Positions 1-8,775 of a stretch of 8,775 bases of DNA are shown piece by piece. Source of the DNA: a bacterium. Lineage in GTDB: Bacteria; CSSED10-310; JAJRTK01. Below the pieces are notes generated by a model. The model was not told where the DNA came from. It did no database searches and saw only the letters and a program-made list of their open reading frames with translations. The stretch covers positions 1 to 8,775 of the forward strand of contig JAJRTK010000494.1 in the NCBI GenBank assembly GCA_024278345.1. Reading direction: 5' to 3'. Position 1 is the stretch's first letter, and each line of letters starts with the position of its first letter. The position numbers were made by a program, and so were the translations under genes.

Positions 1-39
1 CGCGTTTTTGCTTTACACTCCGCGGCGCCGCCCTGGTGG

Positions 40-58
40 CACCGGCATCTTGCCGGTG
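40..58. repeat. short GC-rich palindrome, probable dispersed repeat
   Basis: The sequence CACCGGCATCTTGCCGGTG is a perfect inverted repeat: two 8-base arms around a TCT loop. No T-tract follows on either strand, so it does not look like an intrinsic terminator. From memory, very similar 'accggcatcttgccggt' palindromes recur many times in some PVC-group and other environmental genomes, where they are often mistranslated as part of proteins. Here the kinase frame remains open through it, which is why the frame appears to extend upstream of the real start. That it is dispersed is an inference; only one copy lies in this window. Confidence 0.45.
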
Positions 59-196
59 GCGGGCTGGACGGGATTCACGGAATTGAACGGTGGGTTCCTT
101 TCGTGCGTGGACTTGTCAACCGGATCTGATAGGTCCCCTCGTGGAGAACCGCCTCCTTCCCGTGGAATTCCCCTTTCACACCAAGCTCGAAGAACG

Positions 197-2242
197 ATGA
201 TGAAGCGTCCCCGCTCCACTCGCTTTGAAAAGAAACCCACGGTGCCCGAAGAAGCGAGCACTCCTGTTTCCAACGGTGCAACTTCCGTTGAGGCCCGGGT
301 GCAACAAGCGCTGGCGGAAAGCGAACAGCGTTACCGGCGGCTGGTGGAACTCTCCCCTCTCCCTATCGCCATCCACCAGGATGAGAAAATCGTCTTCGCC
401 AATGCCGCTGCGGCACACTGCCTGGGAACTGAAACCTCCGAAGATCTCGTGGGCCGATCTATCTGGGACTGGGTGCATCCCGATTCTCGGGCGCTTGCCC
501 AAGAGCGGGTCCAGACTCTCTACAACACGGACAGATCCACCGCCCCCTTTGCCGAAGAGAAGTTCGTCCGCGCCGACGGCCAAGTCATCGACGTGGAAGT
601 GATGGGGATGATGGTGACGTTTCGAGGCCGTCCGGCGAGTCAGATAATCTTGCGAGACGTGACCTCTCAGAAGCGGGCGAAGCGAGAGCTGGCGGCCAGC
701 GAGGCGCGGCTTGCCGAGGCTCAGCGAATCGCTCGCCTTGGCAGTTGGGAGTGCGACCTCGAGACTCGGGAGATCGTCTGGTCGGACCAGCTTTTTCGGA
801 TCTTGGGTTTTGACCCCTCTGAAGCCCCTCCCTCGCTGGAAGAATTCCTCCAGCACGTCCATGAGGAGGATCGGGAGAGTCTCACGGCAATCCTCACCGA
901 AGCCGGTCTACAAGGCGATGCCTACGAAGTCGATTACCGTATTGTCCTGCGGGATGGTGGAGTTCGGACCATTCGGGAGCAGGCCGAAGCCATTCTTGGC
1001 GCCAACGGCAAACCGGTGAAGCTCAGGGGTGTGTCCCAGGACATCACGCAACTGGTGGAGCTCGAAGCGGAGCGGATGCAAATGAACGAGCGGCTGAGGC
1101 AGTCTCAGAAAATGGAGGCACTGGGACAACTGGCCGGCGGCATCGCCCACGATTTCAACAATTTGCTCACCGTGATCCTCGGCGGTCTGGGTATCCTCCT
1201 CTCCATGGAGGACGATCCTCCCTCCAATTGGCAGCGCCAGCGAAAAACCAACCTTCAGGAGGCGCGTAACGCGGCTTGGAAGGCAAGCCTCCTCACGCGG
1301 CAACTCCTGGCCTTCAGCCGAAAAGAGGCCCCTCGGCCCAAAGTCATCGCGGCCCAGGAAATCGTCGCCGATCTCAAAAAGATGCTGGATCGCCTCATCG
1401 GGGAACGAATCGATTTTCGAGTCGATCTGGCGGCGGATGTTCCACCGGTCTTCATCCCACCGGGCCATCTGGAACAGGTTCTGCTCAATCTTGTGCTCAA
1501 CGCCAGTGATGCCATGCCCGAAGGCGGGACTCTGACCATTGGCCTCCTGAACCGAAGCCTCCAACGTACCGATGGTGAGCTCCCTCAAGAGCTGGAGCCT
1601 GGCATCTACACGGTTCTCTCTGTACGAGACACGGGGCCCGGGATTCCTCCCGAAACGATGCCACGCATTTTCGAGCCGTTCTTCACCACCAAGCCCAAAG
1701 GCGAGGGAACCGGTATCGGGTTGTCAACGGCAGCCAATATCGTCCGGCAAGCTGGCGGGCACCTCGCTGTCACTAGCGTGGTAGGCAGAGGCTCGACCTT
1801 CATCGTCTATCTTCCCGCGGTTCGCGGCGCCGCCGTCGAAACGACCTCGGAGTGGTCGATTCGGGCACCGGAAGGCAACGAAACCATCCTTGTCTGTGAA
1901 GACGAAGAATCGGTCCGCTACCTTGTCTGCCGCGCACTCCGTATGAAGGGTTACACGGTCCTTGAAGCGAATAACGGACAGCAGGCCCTCGATCTGTTTC
2001 GCCGCGCTCCGGGCCCCATCCACCTGCTCCTCAGCGACATCGTCATGCCCAAGATGGGAGGCATCGAGCTGGCGAAAAGAGTCCGCGCCGAGTATTCCCA
2101 CACGAAAGTCCTGCTCATCTCCGGGTACCCATCCCACGTCCCTGGCGCAAAAGAGCTCCGCGCCACCGTGGACCGGTTTCTCTACAAGCCGTTCCTTCCC
2201 TCGAGCCTCCTCCAAACCGTCCGAGCCCTGCTGGATGGCTAG
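197..2242 (+). CDS. hybrid sensor histidine kinase (PAS-PAS-HisKA-HATPase-REC)
   Basis: Predicted 681-residue soluble sensor kinase that autophosphorylates on His and can pass phosphate to its own receiver domain. Numbering from the ATG at 197: PAS 1 at about 40-155, PAS 2 (PAS_3 type) at about 175-285, then the H-box with phosphoacceptor H318 in GGIAHDFNN. The ATPase domain has an N-box with N431/N435 (NLVLNASDAM), G1 box DTGPGIP (478-484), F-box IFEPFFTTK (491-499) and G2 box GEGTGIGLS (502-510). The receiver (about 563-678) has acidic residues E568/D569, phosphoacceptor D614 in LLLSDIVMP, S642 and K664. There is no transmembrane segment, so it should sense an internal cue. The frame is open back to position 8, but that extension runs through a palindromic repeat and is not protein-like. 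The tandem ATGs at 197 and 200 fit the end of recognisable sequence, although the ribosome site (gaag) is weak. No cognate response regulator lies alongside, so it is an orphan here. The signal and targets are unknown. Confidence 0.93.
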   Translation: MMKRPRSTRFEKKPTVPEEASTPVSNGATSVEARVQQALAESEQRYRRLVELSPLPIAIHQDEKIVFANAAAAHCLGTETSEDLVGRSIWDWVHPDSRALAQERVQTLYNTDRSTAPFAEEKFVRADGQVIDVEVMGMMVTFRGRPASQIILRDVTSQKRAKRELAASEARLAEAQRIARLGSWECDLETREIVWSDQLFRILGFDPSEAPPSLEEFLQHVHEEDRESLTAILTEAGLQGDAYEVDYRIVLRDGGVRTIREQAEAILGANGKPVKLRGVSQDITQLVELEAERMQMNERLRQSQKMEALGQLAGGIAHDFNNLLTVILGGLGILLSMEDDPPSNWQRQRKTNLQEARNAAWKASLLTRQLLAFSRKEAPRPKVIAAQEIVADLKKMLDRLIGERIDFRVDLAADVPPVFIPPGHLEQVLLNLVLNASDAMPEGGTLTIGLLNRSLQRTDGELPQELEPGIYTVLSVRDTGPGIPPETMPRIFEPFFTTKPKGEGTGIGLSTAANIVRQAGGHLAVTSVVGRGSTFIVYLPAVRGAAVETTSEWSIRAPEGNETILVCEDEESVRYLVCRALRMKGYTVLEANNGQQALDLFRRAPGPIHLLLSDIVMPKMGGIELAKRVRAEYSHTKVLLISGYPSHVPGAKELRATVDRFLYKPFLPSSLLQTVRALLDG

Positions 2243-2546: not shown

Positions 2547-4553
2547 CTACTCCTCCTCTGCTTCCGCCTTGGGCAGCAAAGTTGAAATCGTGCGGCCCAG
2601 CTTAGTTCCTCCGATGATCTCTCCGAAAATCGTGGCAACGTCCTTGCCTTTGAAGAGGCTCACGAGGTTCATGTTCCGGGCCACTTCTCCCAGCATCATC
2701 TTGTCGCCAAGGGCAGTGAGCGCTTCGATAAGGGCTGGCTGAATCGCCTTTCGCTCCGCCACGATGGCCTCGCTCCTGGACTGGATGCTTTCCAGCTCCA
2801 TTTGGTGAAGGATTCGGCGGTATTCCTGTTCTTCCCCATGGAGCAACCTTTGCGCGTCTACCTTGGCGGCGGTCTCCAGGCCGATCCTCTCGGAGGCCGC
2901 TAGCACATCCATCTTCCTGCGAAGGATCTCGGCTTGTAGACGCACCTCCTCCCGCTTAGCCTCCAACGTCACCTGCTGGTGGGAGAGCTCGTTGGTATTT
3001 TCCAGGTCCTCCAATCGCCCTGTGTGGTCCAGCTTTCTCGTAAGCGCCCGGATCTGTGCCTCGAGCTCGGTCATCTCGCGCTGCAAGTCCAGTCGCTTGC
3101 GGCCGATCTCGTGGCTGAGCTTGTCCGATCGGAGCTTTTCGCTCTCTTGCTGATCCCCGATGACCAAAGAGACTGATTCCCTTTGGATCCGCTCCAGGAG
3201 CTGGGCGATATCCGCATCGAGGATCTCGCTCTCCAGGACCTCCACCTCGGTCACGTGCATCCCATTTTCTTCGAAGAGCCGGCCTTTTCGCCCCTCCTCG
3301 GTTCTCTCCCCCAAAAGGGTATCGCGGATCACCGTGGACACCTTGGGCCAGAGCTCTGTAAGAGACATTTGGCGGCAACGGCTCCTCACGATGGAGCGAA
3401 GGTGGTCGCACAAGACGCCTACGTAGTTCTGATGGTTGAACCAGGTCTCTCGATACTCGGCGTCGAAGGTGACCCGATAGCTCACTTTGATGTCGATCTG
3501 CACGAAATCGGACGTTTTGACTCGAATGACGTCGGAAATCCGGTTCGCCATGGTGCGAAGGAAACAGGTCTCAAGACACCGAACATCAGTCTTGGGAGTT
3601 CCCGTGGACAGCTTGAGCTTCACCAGGGACTCTTCGTACTCCAAAAGCTCGACACAGGGCCCCTCGATCAACCGCTGTCCCCGTGCTGACGTCGCCAGGG
3701 CCGCCGTATTGTGGGGAACATTGATGGAAATAGCCCAGGGAGTCGTCACCGGCTCCGATGTTCTCTTGTGAGGCTCGTTCTCCGCGATCCATAGGTTCCA
3801 CTGGTCCACGGGGACGGTCCGGGTGATCTGAACTTCCTTCCGGGGATCGACCAGATAGGAGAGCTTGCCCCGGACCAAACGCGCCTCGCCCGTGGCCAGG
3901 TCCCGGACGTAGATTCCACTCTTCTGGTCGATGCCGATGGCTTCGATGAAGACGTGGCTGTGATCGTTCCCCACGTGAGGCTGCCCAGTGAGGGGATCGA
4001 GCACTTCGATCTCATTGAAGGGAAAGAAGAAAGAGTTGACGCCATAAAGGATCATCTCATCGCCGGGGTAGTACATCTCCTGGGTCAATTCGACGCTACG
4101 GGGCAGACGCAGTTTCAGCTTTTCCCGGCTGATGGGCAGAATAAAGCGGAGCCAGAGTGCCCGCTGGGGCAGAAGCTCGTAGGCATAGTAGATCCGGTTG
4201 TCCGACCCTTCGGTCATGAAGGAATCGTAAGGACCGGGAAAGACCCTGGCGGGGCCCACCTTGATCTGCCGTTTGCCGTCAGCGTCGAGGATGACGCAAA
4301 ACTCTTTCTCCCCGAGGACCACGGCCTGGCGTACCAGGCGGTTCTTCCGGATCTCCCGTTCCAGCGCCCGGCGATGGACATCGCTCACGAGGAAAGCCGC
4401 GATCTCATCCTTGGAAAGAGTTGGCTCCTCAGTTTTCTTTTCCGGGGCCGGCGTCACGGTGCGCTGCATAGCCTGACGCGTCCTGGCGGACTGGTCCACC
4501 GCTTTGAATCTGGATCCCTTCCGCTTAGACCTGGGGCGGGGCTTTTTTGCCAA
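2547..4553 (-). CDS. bacterial major vault protein homologue, C-terminal part (repeats, shoulder, cap helix, cap ring)
   Basis: 668-residue protein whose domain order and local sequence match the C-terminal two thirds of eukaryotic MVP, the self-assembling shell protein of vaults. Residues 1-75 are a basic, low-complexity leader (KKPRPRSKRK). Residues 80-275 hold vault repeats: EFCVILD matches the MVP segment NYCVILD, and GIYVRDLATGEARLVRG matches GIYVQDVKTGKVRAVIG. Residues about 276-440 are the SPFH-like shoulder (INVPHNTAA against YRVPHNAAV; LSTGTPK against LSAGRPK). Residues about 441-605 are a charged coiled coil, the cap helix. Residues 606-668 (ALIEALTALGDKMML...NLVSLFKGKDVATIF) resemble the cap ring. 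The family is established from eukaryotes, and I recall homologues noted in some bacteria; particle formation here is inferred. The start is TTG at 4553 with a weak GAAGAG in front; GTG at 4499 and ATG at 4469 are alternatives and would only trim the leader. The N-terminal partner lies 18 nt upstream in the same frame. An SPFH/stomatin-like protein is the fallback call. Confidence 0.88.
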   Translation of the reverse strand: MAKKPRPRSKRKGSRFKAVDQSARTRQAMQRTVTPAPEKKTEEPTLSKDEIAAFLVSDVHRRALEREIRKNRLVRQAVVLGEKEFCVILDADGKRQIKVGPARVFPGPYDSFMTEGSDNRIYYAYELLPQRALWLRFILPISREKLKLRLPRSVELTQEMYYPGDEMILYGVNSFFFPFNEIEVLDPLTGQPHVGNDHSHVFIEAIGIDQKSGIYVRDLATGEARLVRGKLSYLVDPRKEVQITRTVPVDQWNLWIAENEPHKRTSEPVTTPWAISINVPHNTAALATSARGQRLIEGPCVELLEYEESLVKLKLSTGTPKTDVRCLETCFLRTMANRISDVIRVKTSDFVQIDIKVSYRVTFDAEYRETWFNHQNYVGVLCDHLRSIVRSRCRQMSLTELWPKVSTVIRDTLLGERTEEGRKGRLFEENGMHVTEVEVLESEILDADIAQLLERIQRESVSLVIGDQQESEKLRSDKLSHEIGRKRLDLQREMTELEAQIRALTRKLDHTGRLEDLENTNELSHQQVTLEAKREEVRLQAEILRRKMDVLAASERIGLETAAKVDAQRLLHGEEQEYRRILHQMELESIQSRSEAIVAERKAIQPALIEALTALGDKMMLGEVARNMNLVSLFKGKDVATIFGEIIGGTKLGRTISTLLPKAEAEEE

Positions 4554-4571
4554 GTGCTCTTCGTCAAACTC

Positions 4572-5381
4572 TTACTGGGCCTGGAGCGCCTGCTCCATGA
4601 AGAGGTTTGCCACCCCATCGGCGGGCAGCTCCGGGGCGGACTGAGGCTGGGGATCAGCCTGTGAACGGCTGGGCAAGGAAGCCAGGATCCGCCGCGCCGC
4701 CGCGGCGGTCATCGCCTTTCCCCGGCCATCAAGGGAAAGGTCCGGAACAACGTCAACCCCTGTGGGAGGAATGTAGAACTGGGTGTCAAGGCCACGGATC
4801 ACGATGAGTTGCCCTCGCGTCAACTCGGTGGGTTCGGCCTGTTCCGCCTCTGATGTGCTAGAGGCTCCGGAGACATCTTCCGCCGTCGCCGTGGTAATGG
4901 CGGCGGATCGGACTGTAATATCGTAGTAGATCGCCGACTGTTCCACTTCCCCATAGACCTTCACCACCAGGTATTGGTTGGAAGCCAGCTCGTGGACATC
5001 GCGAACCTCAACTCTCTGGCCGGGACGCAGATAAAAGCTACACGGCCCCGGGATCATGTGGCGCGTGCCATTTTTCAGGGATCGCGACTCGTTGCGCCCG
5101 GGCCGGAAACGGCCATTGGGACCCTCATCCTCCAACTTATCGGCCAGAGGATTATAAAGGACCGCATAGTGGGAATCGCTGAGCTCGATCATCCGCTGCG
5201 GTCGACCCGAGTTGTCTTCCCGAAAACCGCCTTCCCCGTCGTCCACCACAACGCGATCCGCTGCCGTCGGGGAAACCATCGTGGGCCCGACGTGTAGAAT
5301 GACTTCCCCCTTGTCATCGTCCTGCACCCAAAGAAACTGCCGTTCAGTGACCGGAATCTTGCGACTGCCTCGCTCGCCCAT
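4572..5381 (-). CDS. bacterial major vault protein homologue, N-terminal repeat part
   Basis: 269-residue protein resembling the first vault repeats of MVP. Residues 8-60 (FLWVQDDDKGEVILHVGP) parallel the MVP start, YIHVLDQNSNVSRVEVGP. Residues 65-145 (HYAVLYNPLAD...SFYLRPGQRVEVRDVHEL) parallel the second repeat, HYCTVANPVS...FPLYPGEVLEKDI. Residues 187-215 (RGQLIVIRGLDTQFYIPPTGVDVV) parallel the [21 protein letters not shown] segment. A Ser/Thr/Glu/Ala-rich insert (about 160-186) and an Ala/Pro/Gln-rich tail (about 216-269) are not vault-like. There is no signal peptide or membrane segment. The chosen ATG at 5381 has an AGGAGG seven bases upstream; an in-frame ATG 14 codons earlier lacks such a site. 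It ends in TAA 18 nt before, and in frame with, the C-terminal vault gene. The pair plausibly forms one transcript and one particle. These repeats form the barrel wall and waist in eukaryotic vaults; that role here is inferred. Similarity is weaker than in the C-terminal part, but the neighbourhood supports the call. Confidence 0.78.
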   Translation of the reverse strand: MGERGSRKIPVTERQFLWVQDDDKGEVILHVGPTMVSPTAADRVVVDDGEGGFREDNSGRPQRMIELSDSHYAVLYNPLADKLEDEGPNGRFRPGRNESRSLKNGTRHMIPGPCSFYLRPGQRVEVRDVHELASNQYLVVKVYGEVEQSAIYYDITVRSAAITTATAEDVSGASSTSEAEQAEPTELTRGQLIVIRGLDTQFYIPPTGVDVVPDLSLDGRGKAMTAAAARRILASLPSRSQADPQPQSAPELPADGVANLFMEQALQAQ

Positions 5382-5388
5382 GCTCGTT

Positions 5389-5394
5389 CCTCCT
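5389..5394 (-). promoter_or_regulatory. Shine-Dalgarno site of the N-terminal vault gene
   Basis: The minus strand reads AGGAGG, then seven bases, then ATG at 5381. This decides the start in favour of 5381 over the in-frame ATG at 5423. It contrasts with the weak site in front of the downstream C-terminal vault gene. Confidence 0.8.
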
Positions 5395-5821: not shown

Positions 5822-7570
5822 CTAAGGTTCTAGTATCAGATCGCGCCTCATCTGCTTCCAAAGGGTATCTGGCGCCTCGCGCCGCTTGGGCTTGTGCTTC
5901 CGTATCCGTTCGATGAGCCTCGGTGCCGAGGGCACCTGCTCCCGTCCCAGAAAAAGAGCTTGCTCCAACAGCCGGCGAGCTTCGGAGAACGCCCCTCGCC
6001 TGAGCTTCACCCACGCCAAGGCTTCGAGGCAAATGCTGTCGAGGGGATCGAGGTCCATCGCCTTCTCCGCTTCCCGTTCCGCCCTCTTGGTACCGCCCGG
6101 CCGCGAAAGCAAGATGACCGCCAGCCGCGCATGGTATCTGGCGACAGTGGGCGCAAGCCCCAGGGCCTTTCTCATGGACGCTTCGGCATCGAGGCACATT
6201 CCCCCATTATATTCTTGAATCGCCCGGTAATAGAAGCCCTTCGCCCGCTCCTTCTTCGACATCTTGGGGGAATCCAGCTTCTCCGTGGCCCCATTGGCCC
6301 CATCCTTGTCCGGAGATTCCCCTGTCGCCCCCTTGAGCTTAGCTTTTCCGGACTCGCCACAAGCCTCTTTTTTCGGCCCTCCTACTTTCTCGGATTTCGC
6401 GGCGCCCTTTTTCTTCGCCACCGGGGTCACTCTCGGCGACGCTGGCGAACGGCGCGCCAAAGCCACATAGCCCTTGGCATGAAGTCCCTCCACCAGCTTC
6501 ATGACCCGCTCCTGGGTCTGGCCCGTCACCAGGCAAAGCTCCCGAATGCTTGATTGCCCGTCGATTTGGCTCACAAGGAACAGGTCGTCCATGGCAAACC
6601 CCGTGAGAGAAATCTGCTCCAAGAAGACGCCTTCGGCCATCACGGGAACTGTCTCCGCGGTGAGAAACGGTGCGTCGTCCTCCAGTTCCGGAATCGTGTA
6701 AACCCCGGAATCTTCCGAAGCGGCGGAACCAGGCGCGGAATCGGGCTTAGAAGATGGAGCCGACGCTCCCAGGATTCTGACGACGCTTTGGGCAGGAGAA
6801 GAAGGGAGACTGACAGCTACGGATCCCACTGTAGGTGGTTCTGCCTTTACCGGCTCATGGCCGGCGACAACAACAACGAGCTTCGACTGGAGAAACCGGG
6901 CCAGCACCACCATGATGTCGAGACGATTTTTCCGGCCCGCCAAGATCGTCGATACCGGGCGTGTGCCGTCAAGGAGACGGAGCAGCCGACGCTCCACCTG
7001 CCCCAGTTTGGCATAAAGCGGCGATCTTTTCGCATCGGGATTCATCCGCAAACAAAGGCGCCCATCGCGAAATTTGTCGTAAACCCGAGGCCAAACCTTC
7101 CTGTACCGGAGCAGCCGGCCAAACAACTCTTCATCGACATTGGGCGCCAGCATATCCAGTTCGGCTGGTTGATCTCTATAGAAGAGGAACTGCCCATCCT
7201 CCGCTTTCAGTATCTCTCCGATGAGCTCCTCGGTCCTCTGGTAGAGCAGCTCCTGCATCTGATCCTTCGTCACCAGGTCCTCGTCCAGCAGGTAGGAATG
7301 AAAAAGAGCTCCCTGTTTCTTCGCCTCTATGAGGCCTTGTTGCACCTGCTCGAGTGTGAGCACTCCCCGAAGAATCAAGAACTCCCCTAACCTACGGCCT
7401 TTCTCTTTCGTCGTCGCGTAGAGCAACATCCCCCCCAAGAAAAGGAAATCGATATCCCTTCCATCGGGGGGCTTCCTTTCAAAATGCAACGTTCCCGTTA
7501 CACCCCGCGTACTCAACGCTGAAAGAATGGCCAGGACATTGCTCCTCTTGTAGTCAATCGTTTCGGGCAA
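5822..7570 (-). CDS. DUF4388 (PATAN) domain protein with TPR-like C-terminus
   Basis: 582-residue soluble protein. Residues about 8-155 form a DUF4388/PATAN-type domain: GVTGTLHF, then FLFLGGMLLYATTKEKGRRLGEFL and the helical segment LTLEQVQQGL...LLYQRTEELIGEIL. PATAN domains sit in many bacterial signalling and gliding/motility proteins and are thought to mediate protein contacts. Residues 187-235 and about 328-373 (DGQSSIRELCLVTG, then ERVMKLVEGLHAKGYVAL) look like two winged-helix-like units often found with this domain. A Ser/Pro-rich linker (240-290) and a Lys/Gly/Ala-rich one (375-440) separate them from a TPR-like helical region (about 440-545). The start is TTG at 7570, supported by AAGGAGG five bases upstream. 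It lies upstream of the vault genes on the same strand, but 440 bp away. Domain assignment is by recognition; the biological role is unknown. A scaffold or adaptor is the likeliest reading. Confidence 0.8.
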   Translation of the reverse strand: MPETIDYKRSNVLAILSALSTRGVTGTLHFERKPPDGRDIDFLFLGGMLLYATTKEKGRRLGEFLILRGVLTLEQVQQGLIEAKKQGALFHSYLLDEDLVTKDQMQELLYQRTEELIGEILKAEDGQFLFYRDQPAELDMLAPNVDEELFGRLLRYRKVWPRVYDKFRDGRLCLRMNPDAKRSPLYAKLGQVERRLLRLLDGTRPVSTILAGRKNRLDIMVVLARFLQSKLVVVVAGHEPVKAEPPTVGSVAVSLPSSPAQSVVRILGASAPSSKPDSAPGSAASEDSGVYTIPELEDDAPFLTAETVPVMAEGVFLEQISLTGFAMDDLFLVSQIDGQSSIRELCLVTGQTQERVMKLVEGLHAKGYVALARRSPASPRVTPVAKKKGAAKSEKVGGPKKEACGESGKAKLKGATGESPDKDGANGATEKLDSPKMSKKERAKGFYYRAIQEYNGGMCLDAEASMRKALGLAPTVARYHARLAVILLSRPGGTKRAEREAEKAMDLDPLDSICLEALAWVKLRRGAFSEARRLLEQALFLGREQVPSAPRLIERIRKHKPKRREAPDTLWKQMRRDLILEP

Positions 7571-8141: not shown

Positions 8142-8775
8142 GTGTCGAGATTCCGATGGATTCGGACCACAACATTCGCCTGCGTGGTGGGTCTGACCGC
8201 CGCGTTGATAGGGGCTCCTGGACCCGCTAACGCGGATTCAAAAAAGTCTTACGAAGAGATGGCAGCCGTCGTTCAGGCAGCGAGAAGTGCAGCTCGCAAC
8301 GCCAAGGACGCCGTCGCCGCCGCCGAGTTCGCGGCAAAAAAAGCCGAGGAGTCCGCCAATGCGGCAAAAGTGGCCCTCAGACGCGCCAAAAAGGCCGCCA
8401 AGGCTGCCATGGTTGCCGCCAATGCGGCTCAGGCTGCCGCTGACGCGGCTAAAGCCGCCCACGCGGAAGCTGTAAAACCCACCGACGCAAAACCCGCGGA
8501 GGCTAAACCGGAGACTAAACCGGAGGCAAAGCCCGCAGCCGTGAAACCAGCCGAAGCAAAGCCCGCTGAAGCTAAGCCGGAGGCAAAGCCCGCTGAAGCT
8601 AAGCCGGAGGCAAAGCCGGAAGCAAAACCGGAAGCAAAGCCCGCTGAGGCAAAGCCGGAAGCAAAGCCCGCTGAGGCAAAGCCGGAAGCAAAGCCCGCTG
8701 AGGCAAAGCCGGAAGCAAAGCCCGCTGAGGCAAAGCCGGAAGCAAAGCCCGCTGAGGCAAAGCCGGAAGCAAAGC
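8142..8775 (+). CDS. secreted Ala/Lys/Pro-rich repeat protein (3' end outside the window)
   Basis: At least 211 codons are visible; no stop occurs before the window ends. Residues 1-31 are a Sec-type signal peptide: Arg at 3, 5 and 8, a hydrophobic core (about 11-25), and a likely cut after ANA (A31/D32). Residues 36-110 are a very Ala-rich, Lys/Glu/Arg-containing helix ([18 protein letters not shown] and similar), likely a coiled coil. From about 111 on the protein consists of Lys-Pro-Glu-Ala repeats that settle into exact PAEAKPEAK units. Such Pro/Lys/Glu/Ala tracts are extended spacers in envelope-spanning or cell-wall proteins and also resemble histone H1-like tails; the signal peptide favours a periplasmic or surface location. 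The family is not recognised and the function is unknown. The adjacent Cys14 lacks a good lipobox, so a lipoprotein is unlikely. Confidence 0.75.
8640..8774 (+). repeat. 27-bp perfect tandem repeat, five copies, running off the window
   Basis: Units start at 8640, 8667, 8694, 8721 and 8748 and are identical at every base; the next base (8775) starts a sixth. Each unit encodes PAEAKPEAK. Imperfect relatives extend back to about 8475. Perfect identity including synonymous positions indicates recent expansion by slippage or recombination, and the copy number may vary between strains or be collapsed in assembly. Confidence 0.9.

Follow-up and report, generated by a model that had tools for sequence, protein, structure and literature searches.

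Does a bacterial contig of 8,775 nucleotides, analysed here in full and referred to as the window, encode a major vault protein (MVP), the protein of which 39 chains form each half-shell of the closed cage of animal vaults, and does it do so in two separate chains? Both had been proposed in an earlier note on this DNA, which described a bacterial MVP encoded as two adjacent genes and possibly divided into a separable wall and cap. The analysis supports the first proposal and argues against the second.

Reading frame across the junction

The two open frames, of 269 and 668 residues, are present on the minus strand as that note had described, together with the three sequence motifs it had quoted. 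Their starts, at 5381 and 4553, are 828 bases apart and in the same reading frame, and the frame from 5381 to 2547 is open to its final stop except for one TAA at 4572-4574. The features of the locus are listed below in window coordinates, with vault repeats (R) numbered after their mammalian equivalents.

5389..5394, minus strand: AGGAGG Shine-Dalgarno sequence of the single gene, identified by sequence, ending seven bases before the ATG
4572..5381, minus strand: upstream open frame (P0002), 269 aa, ATG start, TAA end, holding R1-R3 and the first part of the linker (open reading frame and fold match)
5232..5363, minus strand: vault repeat R1, the most conserved segment (94% mean identity to relatives)
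5007..5204, minus strand: vault repeat R2
4740..5006, minus strand: vault repeat R3
4347..4739, minus strand: variable linker (31% mean identity), at the position of mammalian R4-R5, which holds the stop
4572..4574, minus strand: in-frame TAA, lacking in every relative and the sole break in 944 codons
4554..4571, minus strand: stretch of six sense codons that links the TAA to the TTG, frame unchanged
2547..4553, minus strand: downstream open frame (P0001), 668 aa, TTG start, holding the rest of the linker, R6-R9, shoulder, cap helix and C-terminal segment
4206..4346, minus strand: vault repeat equivalent to R6
3996..4205, minus strand: vault repeat equivalent to R7
3822..3959, minus strand: R8-equivalent vault repeat (match to Pfam Vault_4 that stays below cut-off)
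3567..3746, minus strand: R9-equivalent vault repeat (match to Pfam Vault_3 that stays below cut-off)
3216..3566, minus strand: MVP shoulder (SPFH-like) domain (Pfam PF11978)
2745..3215, minus strand: cap helix, 157 predicted residues (AlphaFold2 helix 447-603 of P0001)
2550..2744, minus strand: C-terminal segment, modelled with low confidence, perhaps a cap ring

Relatives were collected by a scan of bacterial and archaeal genomes, and profiles of the two halves were derived from alignments A1 and A2. The scan returned seven loci whose identity to the downstream part is 61-73%; their labels are those of Myxococcota, Polyangiaceae, Myxococcales or Proteobacteria metagenome-assembled genomes (MAGs). 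Six of these are complete, each a single frame that starts at the equivalent ATG and extends for about 860-942 codons; the seventh ends at a contig edge, yet is open through the junction. Both halves lie in one chain in all 43 distinct homologous genes that span the junction, seven of them at about 62-68% identity, leaving the window, where the TAA interrupts the polypeptide in this assembly, as the only split case. Four short-frame homologues were considered as natural splits or halves and rejected, one (G375) as a frame that runs off its contig end and three (G716, G640 and G503:C108) as distant, shorter proteins instead. With zero split homologues among the 43 genes, a two-gene design was also rejected as a trait of the family. 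Hence, what had been read as two adjacent genes is one frame with one TAA: relatives are uninterrupted, and no clear Shine-Dalgarno sequence was found before the downstream TTG, whereas the upstream ATG is preceded by AGGAGG.

The remainder of the gene shows good preservation. It contains neither a frameshift nor another stop, and the window departs from columns invariant in nine other members at 2 of 119 positions in the upstream half and 5 of 202 in the downstream half, both within the range of intact members; on this sequence measure, neither half shows extra decay relative to them. Given this lack of added decay, frameshift or second stop, the TAA may be an error, a very recent mutation, or tolerated. 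We consider it probable that the locus is one gene of a bacterial MVP family with a single in-frame stop, whose intact relatives would specify an MVP-like product. The stop itself most likely arose as an error of sequencing or assembly, or else as a recent nonsense mutation that the linker tolerates.

A real nonsense mutation that abolishes the particle in this strain would overlap with the recent-mutation branch of this explanation. One nonsense codon followed by a weak restart site is what a newly dead gene would look like, but the rest of the gene is free of decay, so that the loss would have to be very recent, and we regard it as unlikely. Unlikely, too, is a working two-chain vault protein, which would require a fixed, tolerated stop and a translational restart at the TTG, with an R1-R3 chain and an R6-to-cap chain rejoining inside the wall. 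The stop does sit between repeats, in the linker, with the TTG 18 bases past it, and both halves retain otherwise invariant residues without other stops or frameshifts; a functional split would also predict the good preservation of the rest of the gene. Nevertheless, such a protein would be known from one small contig of one MAG, without a single split homologue and with a restart codon that lacks a clear Shine-Dalgarno sequence. If the stop is real, reinitiation at the TTG, a short gap downstream, may still yield some second chain. The suggested separable wall and cap fit the locus poorly, as the cut falls between R3 and R6, within the wall, the stop lies in the variable linker, and the homologues spanning the junction are single-chain without exception. 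The single interrupted gene thus remains the preferred reading, and the two halves are treated below as parts of one protein.

Resemblance to the major vault protein

The downstream part matches the Pfam MVP_shoulder family (PF11978) at E 1.6e-23 and 83.4 bits, against a cut-off of 25, and Pfam Vault_3 and Vault_4 at scores that are both below cut-off. A phmmer search of this part against solved structures returned MVP at E 3e-24, and the family profile returned MVP at E 4e-57 with Flotillin-2 next at 0.03; identity to eukaryotic MVP is about 21-23% over the aligned part. Its AlphaFold2 model, built on 38 sequences, displays beta repeats and a shoulder with pLDDT mostly above 80 from residue 131 on, and directly after the shoulder a single helix of 157 residues (447-603). 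The C-terminal segment is modelled with pLDDT mostly below 55, yet is conserved by sequence, and may correspond to a cap ring. In Foldseek the model matches MVP at 8e-28 vs 1e-6 for the best SPFH protein, and VIA-align superposes it on human MVP with a Z of 23.5 over 437 residues (MVP 323-802), compared with 12.1 for prohibitin; along the cap helix the alignment reaches MVP residue 813. Whole-model rmsd to MVP is large, at 69-78 Å (69 Å for this VIA-align superposition), a value that we attribute to the long helix and to hinges between domains; the structural match consequently rests on local geometry and domain order.

For the upstream part, similarity by sequence alone is weak (E 0.01), and the family profile retrieves only MVPs, at E 3e-4 to 3e-3, with the next match at 0.25. 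Its predicted structure (pLDDT 72) has MVPs in all of the top 16 Foldseek rows, the best at 9e-6, and VIA-align places model residues 3-207 on MVP residues 2-155 with a Z of 10.3; the fold match as a whole, over MVP 2-158, corresponds to R1-R3. The two outcomes that the earlier note had named as fatal did not occur: the 668-residue protein gave more than generic SPFH or stomatin matches, with MVP_shoulder above its cut-off, and the 269-residue part is not devoid of vault-repeat matches or tandem beta repeats, as its predicted fold matches MVP 2-158. Profiles and predicted folds also bear out the proposed order of vault repeats, shoulder, long helix and C-terminal segment.

It is very improbable that the locus instead holds a generic SPFH or stomatin-like protein beside an unrelated upstream gene. 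The shoulder does have an SPFH fold and SPFH proteins do match the model at lower score, but the Foldseek E-value for MVP is better by some 20 orders of magnitude, in a match that covers the repeats and helix. The upstream part, too, resembles MVP repeats, and every relative has it in one chain with the downstream part. With vault repeats present, MVP_shoulder passing its Pfam cut-off, and Foldseek, VIA-align and the family profile all favouring MVP, we rejected the SPFH class (stomatin, prohibitin, flotillin) and assign the gene to a bacterial MVP.

Vault repeats, linker and putative cage

The body of mammalian MVP comprises nine repeats, and its helix-cap region starts from residue 647 (PMC13347060). 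The repeat count of the bacterial protein rests mainly on the VIA-align superposition of both parts and on motif spacing in relatives; the sequence of rat MVP residues 1-377 used in the repeat comparison and in the tree was checked against fragments in the search alignments. Fold and sequence matches of either part include no counterpart of about MVP 159-272, i.e. R4-R5, and residues 78-143 of the downstream part match MVP 274-342 by sequence (phmmer). The linker found at this position is the least conserved segment, vs 67-87% mean identity for R6, R7, R8, R9 and the shoulder. In a compact subfamily (about 820-860 aa) just 21-22 residues separate the R3 end motif from the R6 strand motif, so that these members have no space for R4-R5. 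In the window's own subfamily, this gap measures 133-173 residues in the members where both motifs could be located, with one exception of 63, and holds no detectable repeat. The bacterial members examined here therefore carry seven vault repeats, R1-R3 and R6-R9. Tandem vault repeats, shoulder and long cap helix are all present and the full R1-R9 series is not, which supports membership as a variant of the MVP family rather than a standard member.

By analogy with animal vaults, the seven beta repeats of each chain would pack side by side into a wall, with the shoulder domains forming a ring above it and the long helices bundling into a cap. Two half-shells would then join through R1-R1 contacts at the waist to yield a closed cage in the cytoplasm; with two repeats fewer in each half, it would be shorter than its animal counterpart. 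The near-invariance of R1, a feature of the alignment, fits such a contact surface.

Distribution, neighbourhood and known systems

Of 377 genomes sampled from the phylum to which one relative belongs, 47 have MVP_shoulder (46 over cut-off). The domain was also detected in 2 of 8 genomes from the window's own phylum, and a sample of 386 nearest-relative genomes reaching across the domain Bacteria contained 7 with it, two of these seven being the own-phylum ones; none of 14 control genomes had a match over cut-off. Several genomes hold two copies, and no second MVP copy was found in the window's own genome. The contig is short and its gene resembles those of a neighbouring phylum, so it may stem from another organism in the bin. 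In the eukaryote-bacteria tree, eukaryotes are represented by a single mammalian sequence, whose very long branch measures 3.7 substitutions per site, so that the tree is uninformative on the suggested relic of vault origin.

Two further groups of proteins were encountered. A third, divergent MVP-like subfamily of about 910-915 residues (L046:7117-9861 and L059:4592-7321) occurs as a second copy in bacterial genomes that also carry another MVP. Two proteins of about 490 residues (L071:4801-6285 and L072:5821-7287) combine an SPFH/Band_7 domain with weak MVP_shoulder and weak Vault_3 matches, and are possibly intermediates between SPFH proteins and MVP.

Around the MVP gene, the window encodes a convergent hybrid histidine kinase with PAS domains and a receiver domain (2-2242, plus strand) and, upstream on the same strand, a 582-aa protein with a DUF4388 domain (5822-7570, minus strand), which was not found as a conserved neighbour in relatives among the matches listed. 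An open reading frame that runs off the contig end contains, at 8549-8775, 8.6 copies of a 27-base tandem repeat (93% match), which code for repeats rich in Pro, Glu, Ala and Lys. A conserved operon was rejected, as only a generic histidine kinase recurs among the matches listed, at 27% identity. TEP1, PARP4 and vault RNA are partners of vaults and are not required for MVP membership. No TROVE domain (as in TEP1) was found in the window's own genome, which is 87.9% complete, and the window has no Rfam match. The absence of conserved neighbour genes among these matches and of a TROVE protein in the genome suggests a stand-alone cage protein.

Bacterial MVP homologues are already on record (Daly et al. 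2013, as cited in PMC7916137), although vaults are still described in the review literature as exclusive to eukaryotes (PMC11855390). The literature searched, to which the original reports of Daly et al. did not belong, yielded no description of the seven-repeat architecture, the linker subfamily or the frequency in the relative's phylum. Bacterial MVP itself is thus known, and this absence is not proof of novelty for the seven-repeat form. The complete bacterial genes examined here present the MVP order in full, with a wall that is shorter at seven repeats, and MVP shoulders are found in one phylum and in a few others, so that cage assembly, function and the origin of vaults become testable in bacteria. 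A false lead is also removed, the two-gene arrangement being probably one interrupted frame.

Among known systems, SPFH proteins (prohibitin, erlin, flotillin, stomatin, HflK/C) have the same SPFH fold as the shoulder and, like it, continue into a long helix, but lack tandem vault repeats and give far weaker fold matches than MVP. The putative homologues of Daly et al., as they are cited in PMC7916137, are likewise MVP-like proteins encoded in bacteria. Compared with eukaryotic MVP (rat, human and rabbit; PDB 4HL8, 4V60, 9BW5 and 9Z4W), the bacterial form differs in having seven repeats rather than nine, with a variable linker in place of the absent R4-R5, and, in this genome, in its in-frame stop; the order of repeats, shoulder, cap helix and C-terminal segment is common to both.
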